This document shows, piece by piece, positions 3,307-41,211 of a DNA stretch of 64,000 bases. The stretch lies in assembly GCF_000327485.1 (NCBI RefSeq), contig NC_019943.1:310001-374000 (forward strand). Direction: 5' to 3'. Both the position numbers and the translations under genes were made by a program. The DNA is from Methanoregula formicica SMSP (GTDB lineage: Archaea > Halobacteriota > Methanomicrobia > Methanomicrobiales > Methanospirillaceae). The notes under the pieces are model-generated. The model had not been told where the DNA came from. It searched no databases and worked only from the letters and a program-made list of their open reading frames with translations. Position 1 is the stretch's first letter; the number at the start of each line of letters is the position of its first letter.

Positions 3307-4691
3307 AGGAATACAGGACTATCAACAAGATTGCCGGCCCCCTGGTTTTCGTAGAGAAGACTGAGCCGGTTGCTTACCAGGAACTCGTGAACGTCGTCCT
3401 CTTCGACGGGACGATCAAGCGTGGCCAGGTGCTGGACACAAGCGACGAGCTCGTGGTTGTCCAGATCTTCGAGACCACCACCGGTATCGGCAGGGACAGC
3501 GGTATCCGGTTCACCGGCGAGACCATCAAGATGCCCGTGGGCAAAGATATGCTTGGCCGTATCCTGTCCGGTGGCGGTAAGCCTATCGACGGCGGCCCGG
3601 AGATTGTCCCGGAGAAGCGCCTCGACATCACCGGTGCGGCCATCAACCCGTACGCCCGCGGCATGCCGGCAGATTTCATCCAGACCGGTATCTCCACGAT
3701 CGACGGGACCAACACCCTTGTCCGTGGCCAGAAGCTCCCGATCTTCTCGGGCGCAGGTCTCCCGCACAACAATGTTGCGCTGCAGATCGCCCGGCAGGCA
3801 AAGGTGCCCGGCTCGACCGAGAGTTTCGCCGTAGTCTTCGCTGCCATGGGTATCACCAAGGAAGAAGCGAACTACTTCATGCAGGACTTCGAGCGCACCG
3901 GTGCCCTCGAGCGTGCCGTCGTCTTCCTCAACCTTGCGGATGACCCGGCCGTCGAGCGTATCATCACCCCGCGTCTCGCCCTGACCACCGCAGAATACCT
4001 TGCCTTCGAGCTCGGTATGCACGTGCTGGTCATCCTGACCGATATGACCAACTACTGTGAAGCGCTCCGCCAGATCGGTGCAGCCCGTGAAGAAGTGCCC
4101 GGCCGTCGTGGCTACCCGGGTTATATGTACACGGATCTCGCCTGCATCTACGAGCGTGCCGGCATGATCAAGGGCCAGAAGGGTTCCGTTACCCAGATCC
4201 CGATCCTGACCATGCCCGGTGACGATATCACCCACCCGATCCCAGACCTGACCGGTTACATCACCGAAGGCCAGATCGTGGTCAACCGTGAACTGCACCG
4301 CAAGGGCATTTATCCGCCCATCAACGTGCTGCCCTCGCTTTCCCGTCTGATGAACCTCGGTATCGGGAAAGGTCACACCCGTGAGGACCACAAGAAGGTC
4401 TCCGACCAGATGTACGCCGGCTATGCAGAAGGCAATGACCTCCGCGGCCTGGTGGCCATCGTCGGTAAGGACGCGCTTTCCGAGCGCGACCGCCTGCTCC
4501 TTGAGTTTGCGGACCTGTTCGAGAACCGTTTTGTCCGCCAGGGGTATGACGAGGACCGCACCATCGAGGACACCCTCAACCTCGGCTGGGAGCTCCTCTC
4601 GTCGCTGCCGGTTGAACAGCTCACCCGTATCGACCGTGACCTCATCAACAAGTACCACCCCAAACTCAAGGCCGGTGCAAAGAAGGAGTAA
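3303..4691 (+). CDS. atpB: A-type ATP synthase regulatory subunit B
   Basis: A 462-residue non-catalytic subunit that alternates with A in the A3B3 hexamer. It starts with [18 protein letters not shown], the conserved beta-barrel entry, and shows the family pattern [15 protein letters not shown] and the GLPHNN segment at the place where catalytic subunits have a P-loop; no Walker A is present, as expected. Length is normal. It overlaps atpA by 4 bp (ATGA) and is followed 6 bp later by atpD. Confidence 0.97.
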
Positions 4692-4697
4692 CCAGCC

Positions 4698-5327
4698 ATG
4701 GCGCTGCGCGATGTCAAGCCAACCCGCTCGGAACTGATCAACCTGAAGAGGAAGATCCAGCTCTCCGAGCGCGGCTACAAGATCCTTAAGATGAAGCGCG
4801 ACGGGCTGATCCTTGAATTTTTCAAGGTACTCGCAGATGCAAAGGACTGCAAGGGGGATCTCCTCAAGAAGCACGCCCGCGCTGTCGAGATGATGGCGCT
4901 CGCAAACACCGTTGAGGGGGCCATCGGAGTGAAGTCGGCGGCATTCTCCGTCAAGGAAGTGCCGCAGATTGCCCTGAAGAGCAAGAATATCATGGGTGTT
5001 GTCGTGCCGCAGATCGAGTCCTCGAAAGTCAGGAAAACGCTCGCGGACCGCGGTTATGGTGTGCTCGGGACATCGACGGTCATTGATGAGACCGCATCGG
5101 CATTCGAGGAGCTCGTGGAAGCGATCATCATCAGTGCAGAAATTGAAACCACCATGAAACGCCTGCTCGACGAGATCGAGAAGACCAAGCGTCGGGTCAA
5201 CGCGCTCGAGTTCAAGGTCATCCCGGAACTCACCGCTGCCCGGGATTTCATCAAGATGCGCCTTGACGAGATGGAAAGAGAAGAGCTCTTCCGGATGAAG
5301 AAGATCAAGGCCCGCAGTACTTCATAA
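4698..5327 (+). CDS. atpD: A-type ATP synthase subunit D
   Basis: A 209-residue coiled-coil protein, the central rotor shaft of the A1 part. The N-terminal MALRDVKPTRSELINLKRKI and the long C-terminal helix (about 140-205, rich in E, K and L) are characteristic of the V/A-type D family. An AAGGAG sequence lies 5' of the ATG. The stop is 19 bp before pgk with no T-run or hairpin between, so pgk is probably on the same transcript. Confidence 0.96.
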   Translation: MALRDVKPTRSELINLKRKIQLSERGYKILKMKRDGLILEFFKVLADAKDCKGDLLKKHARAVEMMALANTVEGAIGVKSAAFSVKEVPQIALKSKNIMGVVVPQIESSKVRKTLADRGYGVLGTSTVIDETASAFEELVEAIIISAEIETTMKRLLDEIEKTKRRVNALEFKVIPELTAARDFIKMRLDEMEREELFRMKKIKARSTS

Positions 5328-9097: not shown

Positions 9098-10516
9098 TTA
9101 CCCTTTTTTTCCGACCGGGTACCGATACACACCTCGAGGTATGCTCATCTCGAAGACGGCACCCTTCCCCGGTGTGCCGGTCTCCCTGATTGTAATCCCG
9201 GTGATCCCCAGGATCTCCCGGACAAGGAAAAGTCCAAGGCCGGTGTTTTTGCCATACCCGCGTTCGAACACCCGCTCTTTCTCGTCATCGGGAATACCCA
9301 CGCCATCGTCTTCCCAGAGGATCTTCAGTCCCCCCTCGCCCTCGCGGCAGGTGACCTGGAGATTCCGGACATGCCCTCCATGCCGCAAGGAGTTGTCAAA
9401 GAGGTTGAAGAAGACCTTCTGGAGCATCGGGTCCGCAAACACCTCCACATCACCGCAGGTGGTCTGGAATTGCACCCCTTCCGGCACCATCCTCCTTGGC
9501 AGGACGGAATCGATCTTCTGCCAGCGTGAGTCCGTGCTCCCCAGATCCTGGTACACCCGGCTGAACTCGATTTGGGTCTGGATAGCGCGTGTTGTGGTCC
9601 CGATCTTCAGGAGGAAGGAGTCAATCTCCTTCGGAGGATTCCTCTTCTGGATAAAAATGATGTTGCTGTCAATGATCGAGATCTTGTTTAAGATATCGTG
9701 GCGGGTGATACTGGAGAGGAGGTTCAGTTTCTTGTTGGCCATGCGCAGGGCATCGTCAGCCATCATATGCATCGTGATATCGAACAGGCAGATGATTGTC
9801 CCCCGTTCCGGATGAACGGAATAGAGAGGGCCATGACTGAGAAGGACCCGCAGAATTGCGCCGTCCTTTCTCTGCCATCGGGTTTCCACCGGAAGGGCAT
9901 TCCCGTTCATCGTGTGGTTATTGCCGTCTGCCGGTGGCAGGAGGCAGGTATCGGCATCCGGCCAGAGGGTGTGGATGTCGGTGGTTTCCAGTTCTTCCCG
10001 GGTATACCCGGTCAGTGTGCAGAGATGTTCGCTGGCGTGAGTGATGGTTTTCCCTTTGAGAATCCCGACACCGGCCGGGACCGTGCGGATGATGCCTGCA
10101 AGCAGGTCATTTTCCACCCTGAATGCCCGATCTTCCGCCTTCCGTTTTCCGATGACCTGGTGGATGGTAGCGGTGAGCCGGGCGAATTGTTCGCCTTTCG
10201 CCCCTCCTTTTTTGACATACCCGTCCGCACCATGGCTGAGGGCCTGCATCACGACTTCTTCGCTTCCTCTCCCGGTAAAGATGATGAACGGGGTTGTGTC
10301 GCCTTGTTCCCGGAGTGCCTTTACAAGCGGGATCCCGTTTATCTCCGGCACCGGGTAATCGCTGATGATGAGGTCATAGGGTGCAGCGTTGTGCACCTGC
10401 ATCGCGGTGCCGGCAGAGGTTGCGGTATCAATGGTGAACAGGCCAGTCTCGTTAAGGGAACGCCTGCAGTCCTCAAGCAGGGCCGGATCATCATCTACAC
10501 CCAGAATGCGCAGCAT
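9098..10516 (-). CDS. Response-regulator/PAS/histidine kinase hybrid
   Basis: 472 residues. An N-terminal receiver domain (1-125) has acidic residues VDDD, phospho-acceptor D53 in ISDYPVPE, T81 and K102. A PAS domain follows (about 135-255), then a dimerisation segment with H273 in SITRHDILNK and an HATPase domain (about 360-470) with the N box FFNLFDNSLRHGG and the G boxes DDGVGIPD and GLGLF. The protein has no membrane segment, so it probably senses a cytosolic signal and may be controlled by phosphorylation from another kinase. Its kinase core closely resembles that of the large kinase at 60276-64000. The ATG lies 28 bp from a TATA box, so the mRNA is probably leaderless. Confidence 0.9.
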   Translation of the reverse strand: MLRILGVDDDPALLEDCRRSLNETGLFTIDTATSAGTAMQVHNAAPYDLIISDYPVPEINGIPLVKALREQGDTTPFIIFTGRGSEEVVMQALSHGADGYVKKGGAKGEQFARLTATIHQVIGKRKAEDRAFRVENDLLAGIIRTVPAGVGILKGKTITHASEHLCTLTGYTREELETTDIHTLWPDADTCLLPPADGNNHTMNGNALPVETRWQRKDGAILRVLLSHGPLYSVHPERGTIICLFDITMHMMADDALRMANKKLNLLSSITRHDILNKISIIDSNIIFIQKRNPPKEIDSFLLKIGTTTRAIQTQIEFSRVYQDLGSTDSRWQKIDSVLPRRMVPEGVQFQTTCGDVEVFADPMLQKVFFNLFDNSLRHGGHVRNLQVTCREGEGGLKILWEDDGVGIPDDEKERVFERGYGKNTGLGLFLVREILGITGITIRETGTPGKGAVFEMSIPRGVYRYPVGKKG

Positions 10517-10540
10517 TACCAGAGGTACGTCTGATGAGGT

Positions 10541-10549
10541 TTATACAAT
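10541..10549 (-). promoter_or_regulatory. TATA box of the receiver-PAS-kinase gene
   Basis: On the minus strand the sequence reads TTGTATAAACC, centred about 28 bp before the ATG at 10516. There is no ribosome-binding site at that ATG. Confidence 0.5.
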
Positions 10550-10600
10550 TACCGATATGGAGAGGTCCTCATAAAAGGGTGCATTTTTTATCGAATAATT

Positions 10601-10610
10601 ATTTATAATA
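10601..10610 (+). promoter_or_regulatory. TATA box of a structured leader or small RNA
   Basis: TTTATAATA on the + strand predicts a transcript start near 10632, about 150 bp before the HEAT-protein gene. Confidence 0.4.
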
Positions 10611-10614
10611 GGGT

Positions 10615-10636
10615 TACATTATAATATTGTAATGTA
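10615..10636. promoter_or_regulatory. 22-bp near-perfect palindrome, candidate operator
   Basis: TACATTATAAT at 10615-10625 is followed directly by ATTGTAATGTA at 10626-10636; the halves are inverted copies with one mismatch. It covers the start site predicted from the TATA box at 10601-10610, so a bound regulator would block that promoter. Confidence 0.45.
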
Positions 10637-10735
10637 CCTCCAAGGCCTTCCGGAAAGGATTGCTGCAACGCGGGTACGCTCCGCTCATGGTAAGCGGAGG
10701 CTGTTTTTCATCTTCTGAACCGGTTTTCCGGTTGA
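10632..10735 (+). ncRNA. Candidate small RNA or structured 5' leader
   Basis: After the predicted start site come a short self-complementary CCTTCCGGAAAGG (10642-10654), a 7-bp hairpin CTCCGCT/AGCGGAG (10679-10685 with 10693-10699) followed by a T5 run at 10703-10707, and a second perfect hairpin AACCGG-TTTT-CCGGTT (10718-10733). No reading frame of note is present. It could be a roughly 75-nt RNA ending at the T-run, or the leader of the HEAT-repeat gene. No known riboswitch class is recognised. Confidence 0.35.
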
Positions 10736-10782
10736 TGAGAGCTGGTATTGTCCTCTGAATATGCTGATGATTGGTGAATAAT

Positions 10783-11241
10783 GTGGATATGAGTCTTGAA
10801 TGGCAGGGGCAGGAGTATTCTGTCCTGCCCCGCGGGGGAGTGTATGATCTTATTTCTGCAGCGCAGTCCGGCGCGGATAGTGAAACCCGGCAGCGGGCTG
10901 TCGCGGCTCTCGGGAAGAGCGGCGATCCGCGTGCAGTCCGGCCCGTGGCCGACCTGTTGTACGATGCAGACCCGGAGATCCGGCTTGCATCTGCGATCGC
11001 TCTTGGCCTGCTCAGGAGTGGACGCCCGGTCGATGACCTGGTGGCGCGGCTGCGGGACCGCACTGAACATGCGGCAATCCGGGAACAGGCAGCTGTTGCC
11101 CTTACCGCTATCCGGAGCACCGGGGCAGTTTGCGGTCTCCGTGAATTTGCCGCTGACGGAAATGAAGATGACGCCCTCCGCACCCGCACGGAAAACCTGC
11201 TCAAAGGGATTGGCGCGAAGGAGATGAGTTCCGGTCCGTGA
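10783..11241 (+). CDS. HEAT-repeat protein
   Basis: About 152 residues made mostly of HEAT-like helical pairs: repeated units with the patterns RAVAALGKSGDPRAVRPVAD, RLASAIALGLL and REQAAVALTAIRS. HEAT repeats form a curved protein-binding scaffold, and short ones in archaea often serve as adaptor modules; the partner is unknown. The start is uncertain: GTG 10783 has GGTGA at a good distance, while ATG 10789 and TTG 10771 are alternatives. It lies downstream of a structured leader with its own TATA box. Confidence 0.75.
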   Translation: MDMSLEWQGQEYSVLPRGGVYDLISAAQSGADSETRQRAVAALGKSGDPRAVRPVADLLYDADPEIRLASAIALGLLRSGRPVDDLVARLRDRTEHAAIREQAAVALTAIRSTGAVCGLREFAADGNEDDALRTRTENLLKGIGAKEMSSGP

Positions 11242-19620: not shown

Positions 19621-20337
19621 GTGAACGATGTGGTTATGTTTGGGTGGGACGGGGAGCTGCCTCCTCCAACGGTTCGGACAATTAATGAGATGCAACCAGT
19701 CCTTGCCGATCCGAACTGTGCACATGAGGGTCCGTTGTATTGCATGTACCGCGATCTTGCACAGTCCGATGCCGACTGGACGTGGTTGCATGCCCATAAA
19801 TTGCGGTACGACCTGACGGTAATCCCCCCCAACAATCTCTGCGGGGAGTGGGTTAAGACCAAAGGTCATTACCACCCGAGGAACCCGGCCGGCGTGGGCT
19901 ACCCTGAGATATATGAGGTCCTGGAAGGAACAGCCCGGTATCTCCTTCAGTCCCTGGACCTTCTCGATATTGTCATGATCGATGCACGTGCCGGAGATCT
20001 TGTCGTCATCCCGCCCGGGTACGGCCATGTCACCATCAACCCGACAACTGATGAGACGCTGGCTATGGCAAACATTGTGTCAACGGAATTCGAGAGCGAG
20101 TATGGGGAATATATCTCCCGCCGCGGGGCAGCGTATTTTGCGCTCTGTAACGGCGAGATCCGGAAGAACGCACGTTACCCCCGCGTTCCCTCGGTACGGT
20201 CGGCAAGTCCGGGATCCGGACATTGGGGCGTCCCCAAAGGCCCCCTGTACAGCCTGATCGGGGACGAGAAGGCCCTCTCGTTCCTTAACTATCCCGAACG
20301 GTTCAGCACTCTCTTTGAGAACCTGTTAAGAGGCTAG
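19621..20337 (+). CDS. pgiA: Glucose-6-phosphate isomerase, archaeal cupin type
   Basis: 238 residues of the metal-dependent cupin isomerase family found in euryarchaea, which interconverts glucose-6-phosphate and fructose-6-phosphate. The metal-binding cupin motif is KGHYHPR...PEIYEVLEG in the middle, with a second strand motif PGYGHVTIN carrying the last histidine. Start GTG 19621 is uncertain: a TATA-like GGTATTATC at 19602-19610 sits about 27 bp before ATG 19636 and would make that a leaderless start. The last 35 bp overlap nadE on the other strand. Confidence 0.92.
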   Translation: MNDVVMFGWDGELPPPTVRTINEMQPVLADPNCAHEGPLYCMYRDLAQSDADWTWLHAHKLRYDLTVIPPNNLCGEWVKTKGHYHPRNPAGVGYPEIYEVLEGTARYLLQSLDLLDIVMIDARAGDLVVIPPGYGHVTINPTTDETLAMANIVSTEFESEYGEYISRRGAAYFALCNGEIRKNARYPRVPSVRSASPGSGHWGVPKGPLYSLIGDEKALSFLNYPERFSTLFENLLRG

Positions 20338-21067
20338 GGGCAGGCATACGCTTGTGCCCGCTCTTTTTCACCAGTGCGAGCACCTTCTCTTCCGAGGGAT
20401 TTTGTGCCTTCCATGAATTCTCTTCAAGTGCCCTGAGTGCTGCATCGATCTCGGTGTAGGAAAGCCCGATCTCCTTCTCGTCGCTTTGCCCTGCCCACAG
20501 TCCGGCAGAAGGGACCTTCCTGATGATGGGTTCCGGTATGTTTAGTTCTCGTGCAGCTACGAAGATGTCGGTCTTGTAGAAATGGAGGAGAGGCTGGATA
20601 TCAGCAGCACTATCGCCGTATTTTGTGCTGTAGCCCAGCATATACTCGCTCCGGTTGGACGTGCCACAGACAATCCGGTGGTCACGGTTGGCGTAATAAT
20701 AGAGAGTAATCATCCGGATCCGGGCCATCAGGTTTCCGAGGAGATAGGGTGTTTCTGTAAAGCCAGGCATAGTCCGAAAGCCTTCGAGCATCGGATCGAT
20801 ACTGATAACTTCATAGGGGATTTTAAACCGGCTGCACAGGTCTTCAGCATCGCGGAGATCGTCAGGGCTACTTACCGATGAAGGCATCAGGAGGCCTAGT
20901 ACGTTTTCCGGCCCCACTGCCCGGCAGCAGAATACCGCCGCTACTGCCGAGTCAATCCCCCCGCTCAACCCTATGACAATCCCTTTGCACCCGGTCTGCC
21001 AGTAGGCATGCCGGACCATCTGTTCGATCCTGCCCAAACGGCACCAGAGCCCGTCCTCTGTCTCCAT
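20303..21067 (-). CDS. nadE: NAD+ synthetase
   Basis: 254 residues of the ammonia-dependent class. The PP-loop SGGIDS is at residues 35-40, and GTSNRSEYMLGYSTKYGD with the later KTDIF form the deamido-NAD and ATP sites. It amidates nicotinic acid adenine dinucleotide to NAD+. No glutaminase domain is attached. It lies 19 bp downstream of the degenerate TtuA-like gene, so they probably share a transcript. The 3' end overlaps pgiA by 35 bp (convergent). Confidence 0.95.
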   Translation of the reverse strand: METEDGLWCRLGRIEQMVRHAYWQTGCKGIVIGLSGGIDSAVAAVFCCRAVGPENVLGLLMPSSVSSPDDLRDAEDLCSRFKIPYEVISIDPMLEGFRTMPGFTETPYLLGNLMARIRMITLYYYANRDHRIVCGTSNRSEYMLGYSTKYGDSAADIQPLLHFYKTDIFVAARELNIPEPIIRKVPSAGLWAGQSDEKEIGLSYTEIDAALRALEENSWKAQNPSEEKVLALVKKSGHKRMPAPSLLTGSQREC

Positions 21068-26080: not shown

Positions 26081-27205
26081 TTACATCGAGCGATAAGTCC
26101 GGTAATACAATAGTTTATCAACAATTGTTTTTTCTGATCCGGAATAGAGGGTGACAATCACCCGGATACGGTCTGTCCCCCGGGTGCCCTGCAGTTTTAC
26201 CTCTGAGAGCCGCTGGTTGAAATTGAGTTTTCCCCCGGTCTCTGTCCCGTCTGACCGCGTCAGGATAACCCGGTTGTCTTTTATAAGCCCCATCCCTGGC
26301 CCCCCATTGAATGTCACGGTCACCATGGCATTGCTGTTGTCCTTGTTCGCATCGATGTACAGCTCCGTGTCTTTTGCAAGGGTCTGCGTTGGTTCCACGG
26401 TCAGCACTACCGTATTCACCAGGGCATCCGAACTCCGGTAGTCAATTGCTGATGAAGTGCCGGCTGCGCCGGAAGCATTCAGGCCTGTGGGCGGGTTGAA
26501 GATCCCTGTCAGCATCATAACTGAAAGAAGGATAACCACAACGAGACCAATGCCTGCAGCGGCAAGTACTTTCGTATTCCACACGGGAACTCCTGATGAG
26601 GGTCGGCTGCCGGCGGCTTCTTTTGCCTCCTCTTTCGGGGTCGGAATAACAGGAGTTGTTTCAGGCATCTGCCCCGGGGAGGATTCGTCAGGGATTTCTT
26701 GAGGTACGAGCTTCGGCACCGGTGGGGATGCAGCTGCTTCTGCAGGTATCGGAGGAACAGCTGTCACAGTTCTTTTGCCGATGATGTGCTCCACAGTCCC
26801 GACAAGACGGTCGATATGTTGTTCCATAGGGGGTGTGACGGCATCGAGCCAGTGCGGTACACCGATAAGATATTCCATGGACTTCGAGGGAGTGACGTCC
26901 TCGATACGGAACGGGATGATGATGCGCCCCTTGTTCACGGCATGGGTCAGCTCCCTTGTCACATGGGGAGACTTGTTCGCCGACGAGGAAAAAATGACAA
27001 CAAGCACTTTTCCTTCTTCAATACCCTCGATGATGGCTTCAGGAAAGTTCTTACCGGGATTGATATCCCGCGGGGCGATCCAGCACCGGATATTCCGCGA
27101 TTCTAATCGTGCACATACGGCATCGGCAATGATCTTGTCCTCCTGCGCATAACTGATAAAAACGTCATGATGGCCGGAACTCTTCTGGAGTGGATCGTCT
27201 GTCAT
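26081..27205 (-). CDS. TIR-domain transmembrane protein
   Basis: 374 residues from the ATG at 27205. A TIR domain spans about 12-140: HDVFISYAQED start, CWIAPRDINPG loop, VVIFSSSANKSPHVTREL with E85, and IIIPFRIED. E85 sits at the place of the catalytic glutamate in NAD-cleaving TIR domains, so NADase activity is possible. A Pro/Glu-rich linker (150-205), one membrane helix (about 213-236) and a C-terminal beta-rich domain (about 265-374) follow. That domain matches the body of the lipoprotein at 40732-41211, which places it outside the cell with the TIR domain inside. It lies 79 bp downstream of the PAS-RyR gene on the same strand. Confidence 0.9.
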   Translation of the reverse strand: MTDDPLQKSSGHHDVFISYAQEDKIIADAVCARLESRNIRCWIAPRDINPGKNFPEAIIEGIEEGKVLVVIFSSSANKSPHVTRELTHAVNKGRIIIPFRIEDVTPSKSMEYLIGVPHWLDAVTPPMEQHIDRLVGTVEHIIGKRTVTAVPPIPAEAAASPPVPKLVPQEIPDESSPGQMPETTPVIPTPKEEAKEAAGSRPSSGVPVWNTKVLAAAGIGLVVVILLSVMMLTGIFNPPTGLNASGAAGTSSAIDYRSSDALVNTVVLTVEPTQTLAKDTELYIDANKDNSNAMVTVTFNGGPGMGLIKDNRVILTRSDGTETGGKLNFNQRLSEVKLQGTRGTDRIRVIVTLYSGSEKTIVDKLLYYRTYRSM

Positions 27206-27213
27206 GTGCCTGT

Positions 27214-27234
27214 CAGGATCGCGTAGAGATCCTG
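27214..27234 (-). promoter_or_regulatory. Inverted repeat in the TIR gene leader
   Basis: A perfect CAGGATC-N7-GATCCTG (27214-27220 with 27228-27234) begins 9 bp upstream of the TIR ATG. A TATA-like CTGATAAAAATCC (minus strand, 27250-27262) would start the transcript near 27229, within or beside it. It may be an operator or an mRNA hairpin near the ribosome-binding region. Confidence 0.45.
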
Positions 27235-27284
27235 CCCTCCCTCTATGGATTTTTATCAGGACTATATGATGATTAGTGTTGCCG

Positions 27285-28379
27285 TTACACGCGGACAATC
27301 TTCAGGTATACCTTTGCAAGGATTGCCGGCAGCGCCCTGACAGCGTTCCGGTCCTTCATTCTCTGCGCGTCTGAAAGATTGGCCCAGGGGAGGATGCAGT
27401 CATGGATCTTCTGCATGTCGTCCCTATTCCCTACGTAGACCCAGCCTTTCTTCACCCGCTCGTCGATCCACCGCTCGTGTTCCATCTCGGCAAGGAGTTC
27501 CACCTCATTATCCGAGAAGGCAAAGAGCGGCTCTTTATCCCCTGAAGAGAGCGCGATGGTACAGTGGATGCGGTGGAGCATCTTCCAGATATTCTCGGCC
27601 TGACGGATATTCGAATCCTTCAGCCGGTTGGGCAGCTCGTTCCAAGGAACCATGGAGGAGTTCGTCTCGGGGGTCTGGCCTGCTTTTCCTTCGTTTTCCA
27701 GGTAGTGTTCATGGATTGCCCGCGCAACCAGCTCCCGGGTACCGGTTGCACCGATGTCATAGTATTTCCTGATGATGGTGCGGACCTTCTCCGATTCAAT
27801 CCATCCCTTATCGATCCTTGTTATGATATCGTCGATCTCGGTTGCCAGGGTGTGGATCTTTCCTGCAGTCTTCTGGTCTTCAAGCAAATCCGAGAGGCCG
27901 ATGATGGCGGTGAGCGGGTTGCGAAGGTGGTCTCCCAGGATGGCGAACTGTTCGATGTTCTTCTCGATCTGGGCATAAGCATCCCTCTTGAACTGCTCCA
28001 TCTCAACAAGCTCGGTAATGTCTAGGCCATAGACCAAGGCACCCGCGATATTCCCGTTCTTATCACAACGGGGAACCATGGTGAACCGGATGACATGATT
28101 CATCCCATCTTTTCCCGTCAGTGTTTTGGTTGCCGTGGAATGGTAAAGACCCGGTGCGGTAAAATCATGAATCTCCGAGAGCAGTTCATCAGAGAAAGCT
28201 GGAAAGAATTGACGAAGGTGACGGCGGTATCCCGGGACGTCTTCATATCCCATGAACTCGTTGAAGATACGGTTGGACCAGGCCACTGTGCCATCGGGCT
28301 CCAGTACCAGCACCCACTCTGCCAGACCGTCAAGGGCAAAGAGAAGGGTTTCCTGCAGATTGGCTGGTGGATTGTCCAT
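27285..28379 (-). CDS. PAS protein with kinase-like dimerisation segment and C-terminal RyR domain
   Basis: 364 residues, soluble. A PAS domain covers about 10-125 (LEPDGTVAWSNRIFNEFMGY ... YGLDITE). Next comes the helical segment found in many methanogen PAS proteins, FAILGDHLRNPLTAI with H151, up to about 205 (KGWIESEKVRTIIRKYY); no HATPase domain follows. Residues 217-364 are a RyR (ryanodine-receptor) module: AIHEHYLENE, MVPWNELPNRLKDSNIRQAENI, then the full repeat LLAEMEHERWIDERVKKGW ... LPWANLSDAQRMKDRNAVRALP. Prokaryotic RyR modules are thought to bind nucleotide-like ligands. A TATA box gives a leaderless start, although GGTGATC also lies before the ATG. Confidence 0.9.
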   Translation of the reverse strand: MDNPPANLQETLLFALDGLAEWVLVLEPDGTVAWSNRIFNEFMGYEDVPGYRRHLRQFFPAFSDELLSEIHDFTAPGLYHSTATKTLTGKDGMNHVIRFTMVPRCDKNGNIAGALVYGLDITELVEMEQFKRDAYAQIEKNIEQFAILGDHLRNPLTAIIGLSDLLEDQKTAGKIHTLATEIDDIITRIDKGWIESEKVRTIIRKYYDIGATGTRELVARAIHEHYLENEGKAGQTPETNSSMVPWNELPNRLKDSNIRQAENIWKMLHRIHCTIALSSGDKEPLFAFSDNEVELLAEMEHERWIDERVKKGWVYVGNRDDMQKIHDCILPWANLSDAQRMKDRNAVRALPAILAKVYLKIVRV

Positions 28380-28501: not shown

Positions 28502-28573
28502 TGGACTCGACGGGATTTGAACCCGTGGCCTTCACGTTGCAAACGTGACGATCTACCCCTGATCTACGAGCCC
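28502..28573 (-). tRNA. tRNA-Ala (anticodon TGC)
   Basis: A 72-nt cloverleaf: acceptor GGGCTCG with CGAGTCC and discriminator A, anticodon stem TCACG/CGTGA around loop TTTGCAA (anticodon TGC), T arm ACGGG-TTCAAAT-CCCGT. The alanine identity pair G3:U70 is present. CCA is not encoded and there is no intron. Confidence 0.97.
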
Positions 28574-28897: not shown

Positions 28898-28969
28898 TGG
28901 ACCCGGCGGGATTTGAACCCGCGGCCTCTACGTTGCGAACGTAGCGATCTACCCCTGATCTACGAGCCC
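28898..28969 (-). tRNA. tRNA-Ala (anticodon CGC)
   Basis: A 72-nt cloverleaf nearly identical in its D arm and T loop to the tRNA at 28502. Acceptor GGGCTCG/CGGGTCC keeps the G3:U70 identity pair; anticodon stem CTACG/CGTAG encloses TTCGCAA (anticodon CGC). CCA is not encoded. A minus-strand TATA-like AAAATATAC (28983-28993) lies at promoter distance. Confidence 0.97.
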
Positions 28970-40585: not shown

Positions 40586-40731
40586 TCGATAGACTCCTGA
40601 TAAGTAAACTTCATCCGGTGTCCTTTTTAATGTATCGTTCTTTTCCGGAATTCCTTCCTCTCCCCGTATTCTCCACCTGCGTCCGGGTTTCTGACACAAA
40701 TCAGTAATACCAATACATGCAAGGGATCTGC

Positions 40732-41211
40732 ATGAAGACAACCCGGATCCTGATTGTTCTTTTCGGGGTCGTACTCTGTGCTCTCGCTGCCGGCTGCACG
40801 AGCCCGACCAGTATCCTGATGAAGAGCGGTACCCCAACCCCCTCCCCGCAGGTGACGGTATCACCGGAGACAACGTTGCTCTCGCAGGGGGCTTTCATGC
40901 CCGTGCAGACACTGCCTGCTGAACAATACGTTGACGTTCAGCTCACAAAGGAGCGCCCGGATTACACAATCCACCTCCTGTACAATGGCGGCAAGGGAGA
41001 AGTAAGCGTCCAGAACATCTTCCTGAAAGCGACGCTGTCGGACGGGCAGGTTATTGAGAAATACCTGAATGACAACCAGCGTCAGCCAAGGAGAGGTGAC
41101 GAGATCATCATCAAGGGTACCCGAGGCAGCGACCGTGTCGAGGTCTATATCACCAGCGTTGGCCAGACCTATAAGATCCTTGACAAGGAACTGCTGGTGA
41201 ACCGCCTCTGA
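40732..41211 (+). CDS. Lipoprotein with the same domain as the TIR protein's C-terminus
   Basis: 159 residues. Lipoprotein signal MKTTRILIVLFGVVLCALAAGC with lipobox LAAGC. A short Pro/Thr linker leads to a beta-rich domain (about 65-159). Matches to the TIR protein's C-terminus include YNGGKG against FNGGPG, SDG, the motif KGTRGSDRVEVYIT against QGTRGTDRIRVIVT, and ILDKELL against IVDKLLY. The domain is therefore extracytoplasmic in this protein. Function unknown; a binding or sensing module is inferred. Start ATG 40732 follows AAGGGATC. Confidence 0.85.
   Translation: MKTTRILIVLFGVVLCALAAGCTSPTSILMKSGTPTPSPQVTVSPETTLLSQGAFMPVQTLPAEQYVDVQLTKERPDYTIHLLYNGGKGEVSVQNIFLKATLSDGQVIEKYLNDNQRQPRRGDEIIIKGTRGSDRVEVYITSVGQTYKILDKELLVNRL

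Follow-up and report, generated by a model that had tools for sequence, protein, structure and literature searches.

A TIR gene beside a gene for a PAS protein with a ryanodine receptor module in Methanoregula formicica: a candidate NAD-derived signalling pair

Two adjoining genes on the reverse strand

The DNA analysed here, the window, is a stretch of 64,000 nucleotides from Methanoregula formicica SMSP (contig NC_019943.1, positions 310,001 to 374,000), and all coordinates are those of this stretch unless a locus is named. The genome consists of one contig of 2,820,858 bases. Two genes follow each other on the reverse strand. The upstream one (27285..28379) encodes a protein of 364 residues made of a PAS domain, a helical hairpin and a ryanodine receptor (RyR) module. 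The downstream one (26081..27205) encodes a protein of 374 residues, with a predicted cytosolic TIR domain, a linker, a single membrane helix and a beta-rich domain that would face outward. Between the stop codon of the RyR gene and the ATG of the TIR gene lies a gap of 79 bp (27206..27284, same strand), the corresponding distance being 32-223 bp in eight other adjacent pairs. The start of the TIR gene was taken as the ATG at 27205; were it to begin at the alternative in-frame TTG at 27298, it would share 14 bases with the RyR gene. The only TIR_2 gene and the only PF02026 gene of the genome are those of this pair. Scans for sigma-70 promoters and terminators were of no help in defining an archaeal operon. 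Two tRNA-Ala genes are located just upstream (28502-28573 and 28898-28969, reverse strand), and a gene for NAD synthase (20303-21067, reverse strand; PF02540, 2.3e-70) is found 5 kb from the TIR gene, possibly by coincidence.

A TIR domain tethered to the membrane

The features of both proteins are given with their coordinates on the reverse strand. The TIR domain covers about residues 14-134 (26804..27166; TIR_2 match at 15-134, E=4.5e-23), and structure comparison matches its model to SARM1, RPS4, RUN1, SPARTA and AbTir. Residue E85 (codon 26951..26953) is the putative catalytic glutamate, and a glutamate is found at this position in 75 of the 78 distinct TIR domains that we collected. Judged by sequence and model, the domain thus has both the fold and the catalytic glutamate of NAD-cleaving TIRs. 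The linker that follows (26567..26759) is the place where four aligned orthologues carry a zinc ribbon, CxxC...CxxCG, the cysteines of which are lost in the window protein. Then come the hydrophobic helix (residues 214-232; 26510..26566), placed by sequence and a low-confidence model, and the C-terminal domain (about residues 256-374; 26084..26440), delimited by its paralogues and rich in strands at 265-366 in the same low-confidence model. A preliminary description of this DNA had proposed the TIR reading frame, E85, a single membrane helix and a beta-rich C-terminus, and all four stand after a check of the open reading frame, Pfam, alignment and the low-confidence model. PADLOC models and NCBIfam, by contrast with TIR_2, return weak, partial TIR matches only.

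The same genome contains at least seven further copies of the beta domain, some of them in short proteins with lipoprotein-like signal ends or in zinc-ribbon proteins with one membrane helix. Because its paralogues belong to apparent lipoproteins and zinc-ribbon membrane proteins, the domain is probably extracellular. One lipoprotein-like paralogue is encoded within the window itself (40717-41211, forward strand). That the outer domain should be a sensor dedicated to the TIR/RyR pair is an idea weakened by the presence of the same domain in a number of unrelated proteins encoded elsewhere in the genome.

A regulator without kinase domain, ending in a RyR module

The upstream protein begins with a PAS domain (residues 16-125; 28005..28334), identified by PAS_4 (1.6e-9) and by the structural model. 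It is followed by a HisKA-like helical hairpin (DHp, residues 126-207; 27759..28004; HisKA match 3e-6 at 143-190), absent from the preliminary description, which displays a GDHLRNPL box. The usual H-box is HELRxPL, and in our own reading the histidine here comes one place later. A Pfam search finds no HATPase in the protein, which sets it apart from histidine kinases. Indeed, the PAS-DHp part resembles a set of methanogen PAS proteins with an IEQFAILGDHxRNPL hairpin, also devoid of HATPase (examples are at loci L025, L026, L035 and L039); these end after the hairpin, whereas the window protein adds a RyR module. We considered, and rejected, an origin as a histidine kinase that had lost its HATPase: close PAS-DHp relatives in other methanogens lack this domain as well, and it follows that the RyR module was joined to a non-kinase regulator. 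Pfam recognizes PAS, HisKA and RyR alone, with no effector domain, and neither PADLOC models nor NCBIfam gave a match to RyR.

The RyR module extends over residues 209-364 (27288..27755). Its PF02026 score, 58.6 bits for a curated cut-off of 27.4 (7.4e-16, residues 292-350), confirms the clear RyR module announced for this frame. The limits then suggested, 217-364, were better than those of Pfam, which covers residues 292-350 alone, while the homologous module of some 150 residues, roughly 209-364, recurs in other proteins. In our own reading of the alignment, its first half resembles a degenerate repeat of the second, with A..IHE.Y...PW.EL...SN..QA in one and A..EHERW...PW..L...KDR in the other. 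A structural model (pLDDT 85.5) displays helices at 211-232, 251-270, 290-310 and 337-355. The top PDB matches of this part, 6uhi and 9ls7, are a Bacteroides/human (Bt-hRyR) R12 chimera and human RyR3 Repeat12. As modelled, the module is therefore a complete tandem R12 fold. It shares with Repeat12 of the animal ryanodine receptor the tandem four-helix architecture and the key residues, but it belongs to a soluble protein of 364 residues with no calcium-channel part.

What the module might bind

Phage RyR proteins have been found to bind or cleave the TIR signals 2'cADPR and 3'cADPR (PMC13232231, May 2026). In one of them, RyDEP, the ligand is held by H75, W78, H100 and D117; six of the eight homologues tested bind TIR signals, and those other than RyDEP did not cleave them, despite high sequence conservation (PMC13232231). 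The four residues have counterparts in the window protein, the spacing of which is identical (0/3/25/42): H301 (codon 27477..27479), W304 (27468..27470), H326 (27402..27404) and D343 (27351..27353). Among 141 distinct RyR modules, the first is histidine in all 141, the second tryptophan in 122, the third histidine in 104 and the fourth aspartate in 109. The RyR proteins of phages Nepra and Lewando show the same H-W-H-D pattern, in a two-half module like that of the window protein. The catalytic His-Asp dyad of RyDEP is present too, as H301 and D343; it does not predict hydrolysis, because tested homologues with the conserved site did not cleave the signals.

The idea that prokaryotic RyR modules bind nucleotides, put forward when this locus was first described, gains from the binding of TIR-made nucleotides by phage RyR proteins (PMC13232231) and from the preservation of the ligand residues; the classical animal cADPR, its suggested ligand, has become less likely. 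The likeliest ligand would be 2'cADPR or 3'cADPR. A plain adenine nucleotide is another candidate, ATP and ADP being ligands of the R12 domains of animals.

The likeness to RyDEP and the phage RyR sponges lies in the R12/PF02026 fold and in the identical spacing of the His-Trp-His-Asp set (PMC13232231). Unlike these stand-alone phage proteins, the window protein, known here from its sequence, is encoded by the host at a conserved chromosomal site, is fused to PAS-DHp and has a TIR partner. The viral contigs that were searched for RyR yielded three weak matches only. In Arthrobacter phage Lewando (L193), the RyR gene is close to a gene for the nicotinamide riboside transporter PnuC (1486-1926, 2036-2323), which fits NAD-linked counter-defence.

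Conservation of the pair in Methanomicrobiales

PAS-RyR genes are present in ten genomes of the family, and all ten possess the TIR-TM-beta gene. In nine of them the two are adjacent, on the same strand, with the RyR gene first. In the tenth (G171) PAS-RyR is on another contig, TIR-TM-beta having stayed at the usual chromosomal site. A contig end cuts the RyR gene in another genome (G188). One conserved site houses the pair in most genomes, and the genes around it, for NAD synthase, RIO kinase, DUF460, AIRS and TFB, are partly syntenic in relatives; the pair also occurs intact at a different site, without its usual flanks (G166, L097). In trees, the PAS-RyR proteins form one group and the TIR-TM-beta proteins another, with moderate support, and the window TIR and RyR domains are placed near those of other methanogen pairs that associate TIR with TrkA_N-RyR.

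The preliminary description had proposed a search for this neighbourhood in related genomes. Run on 232 genomes of Methanomicrobiales, it bears out the association: a TIR gene lies within 3 kb of 23 of the 38 collapsed RyR loci, for 0.15 expected. PF02026 exceeds its cut-off in 33 of these genomes and TIR_2 in 61, both being found in 29. A TIR gene is thus present in 29/33 genomes with RyR and in 32/199 of the others (Fisher 6e-16). These counts, like that of the loci, are not independent, because relatives share history. The presence of both genes in ten genomes out of ten, and their adjacency in nine, support the view that the TIR gene and the PAS-RyR gene are a conserved unit.

TIR genes next to RyR genes in many phyla

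Outside the order, 58 loci were chosen by RyR alone, and 27 have a TIR gene within 2 kb. The adjacency occurs in Chloroflexota, Pseudomonadota, Verrucomicrobiota, Actinomycetota, Bacteroidota, Bacillota, Acidobacteriota, Spirochaetota and Aminicenantes, and it changes 20 times along the RyR tree. Many RyR loci have no TIR gene nearby. When all loci are taken together, TIR genes reach a density of 4.68 per 10 kb up to 0.5 kb from the RyR gene, against 0.08-0.28 at distances above 2 kb. So steep a profile leads us to reject a loose defence island as the explanation of the adjacency, and our data support its being general.

RyR genes adjoin TIR genes of several architectures. The commonest RyR partner combines a C-terminal RyR module with a TrkA_N (RCK) domain and two membrane helices, as predicted, and is often next to a TIR fused to TPRs. 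The examples that we examined lack a potassium-channel filter motif; such proteins are candidates for channel-like proteins gated by TIR products. Instances from methanogens and bacteria are L075 (7748-9412 with 9512-10915), L091 (913-2610 with 137-907) and L121 (6693-8486). Like them, the window pair has its TIR gene directly beside the RyR gene, and the TIR and RyR domains are related; it differs in that its RyR module is carried by PAS-DHp instead of a channel-like 2TM-RCK protein, and its TIR by a membrane anchor where theirs often has TPRs. Other assemblies were seen. A stand-alone RyR protein of 96 residues (L077, 3721-4011) is encoded, in Methanomicrobiales, in a cluster that also comprises several TIR genes and the gene of a membrane protein (4059-5135). 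RyR proteins of 860-880 residues include an AAA/STAND-like NTPase or a guanylate-cyclase-like domain (L116, 3545-6187; L130, 2187-4775). Finally, a gene at L126 (5940-6920) joins RyR to a nucleotidyltransferase-like domain (DUF6036) and has TrkA_N-RyR and TIR genes as neighbours.

Thoeris, where the TIR protein ThsB works with the effector ThsA, comes to mind at once: here too a TIR gene adjoins the gene of a reader, one of whose domains can be expected from homology to bind cADPR isomers. The reader domain is RyR, whereas that of Thoeris is SLOG or macro; the window reader, with only PAS, HisKA and RyR and no PADLOC model matching it, has neither SIR2, nor membrane pore, nor protease, and its TIR partner is tethered to the membrane. 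A single SIR2_2 domain occurs elsewhere in the genome, unlinked to the pair. Similar in outline, the pair is not Thoeris, as judged by its effector.

A possible relay and its alternatives

TIR proteins make cADPR isomers and phage RyR modules bind them (PMC13232231). From this, and from the residues that the pair conserves, we infer NADase activity, ligand, direction of the signal and output. The helix that bears the outward beta domain would anchor the TIR domain to the inner side of the membrane. Once triggered, the TIR domain would cleave NAD+ through E85 and give a nucleotide of ADP-ribose type, 2'cADPR or 3'cADPR being the likeliest; the R12-type module may bind this product via H301, W304, H326 and D343. 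Binding would alter the dimeric DHp and PAS part, and so relay the state of the system, perhaps to a partner protein, suggested by the absence of any effector domain from the PAS-DHp-RyR protein itself. That the pair is a two-gene unit of NAD-derived signalling, in which a nucleotide made by the TIR is bound by the RyR protein, which then passes its state on, has in our opinion an even chance of being correct.

RyR need not be a receiver, because the phage RyR proteins counteract TIR signalling. The lack of effector domain and HATPase in the RyR protein, the many RyR loci with no TIR gene close by, and the PAS-RyR gene of G171 that lies apart from its TIR gene also count against a relay. The TIR might consume NAD as an effector or make a signal, and the RyR protein might switch it off, either sequestering its product or hydrolysing it as a host-encoded counterpart of RyDEP; PAS and DHp would then set the activity of this brake, the loss of which would let signal or NAD depletion proceed. 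The only microbial RyR proteins known biochemically, those of phages, do degrade or sequester TIR signals (PMC13232231), the equivalents of the RyDEP dyad are kept, the RyR gene is upstream in 9/9 adjacent pairs, as antitoxin genes often are, and the C-terminal place, normally that of the output in PAS-DHp proteins, would fit RyR activity controlled by PAS. Yet the other phage homologues tested cleaved no signal, however conserved their sequence (PMC13232231), and the RyR module of the commoner TIR/RyR pairs is part of a membrane protein, more suggestive of an effector than of a sponge. A brake is nearly as consistent with the sequences as a relay, and sequence alone separates neither; weighing everything, we regard it as rather unlikely, though deserving serious attention.

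Less probable still is a sensor of energy or redox state, where RyR would bind ATP, ADP or AMP as animal R12 domains do, and the TIR would be a non-enzymatic scaffold for clustering at the membrane. The matched human RyR3 Repeat12 structures, which contain ADP, ATP or AMP-PCP, speak for it, and PAS domains are frequent sensors of redox state or small ligands; but then it is difficult to see why E85 and the core of the TIR domain are conserved, why all of the RyDEP residues are kept, and why RyR adjoins TIR genes of such varied architectures. As for mere neighbours, held together by conservation of a site whose flanking genes are partly syntenic in relatives, this reading is already largely refuted and hardly credible, for the pair is intact away from these flanks (G166, L097), G171 keeps both genes though separated, and the adjacency recurs in many phyla.

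What the linkage would mean

The relay thus remains our preferred reading, and the pair looks like an undescribed system of signal maker and signal reader. No paper joining a host TIR with RyR was found in the literature searched, which does not extend to the systematic survey of TIR systems by Yirmiya et al. 2025. Two papers that cite it make no statement on RyR, and two earlier surveys, of NAD/ADPr networks and of NTP-dependent conflict systems, leave RyR unmentioned. Beyond this locus, TIR and RyR may together represent a widespread, unnamed form of prokaryotic nucleotide signalling, with host R12 modules receiving TIR-made cADPR isomers, a generalization that we advance tentatively, at somewhat less than even chances.

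The linkage of host TIR and RyR genes across many phyla predicts what the RyR module reads, and it suggests that phage sponges were derived from host parts. It would also provide a prokaryotic precedent for the R12 domain of animal ryanodine receptors and for their disputed link with cADPR: whether cADPR-type molecules act directly on ryanodine receptors is an old question, which can now be tested in a small soluble archaeal protein. If the proposal is true, the R12 modules that receive the TIR signal would be coupled to PAS-DHp regulators in Methanoregulaceae, and to two-helix, channel-like RCK proteins elsewhere.
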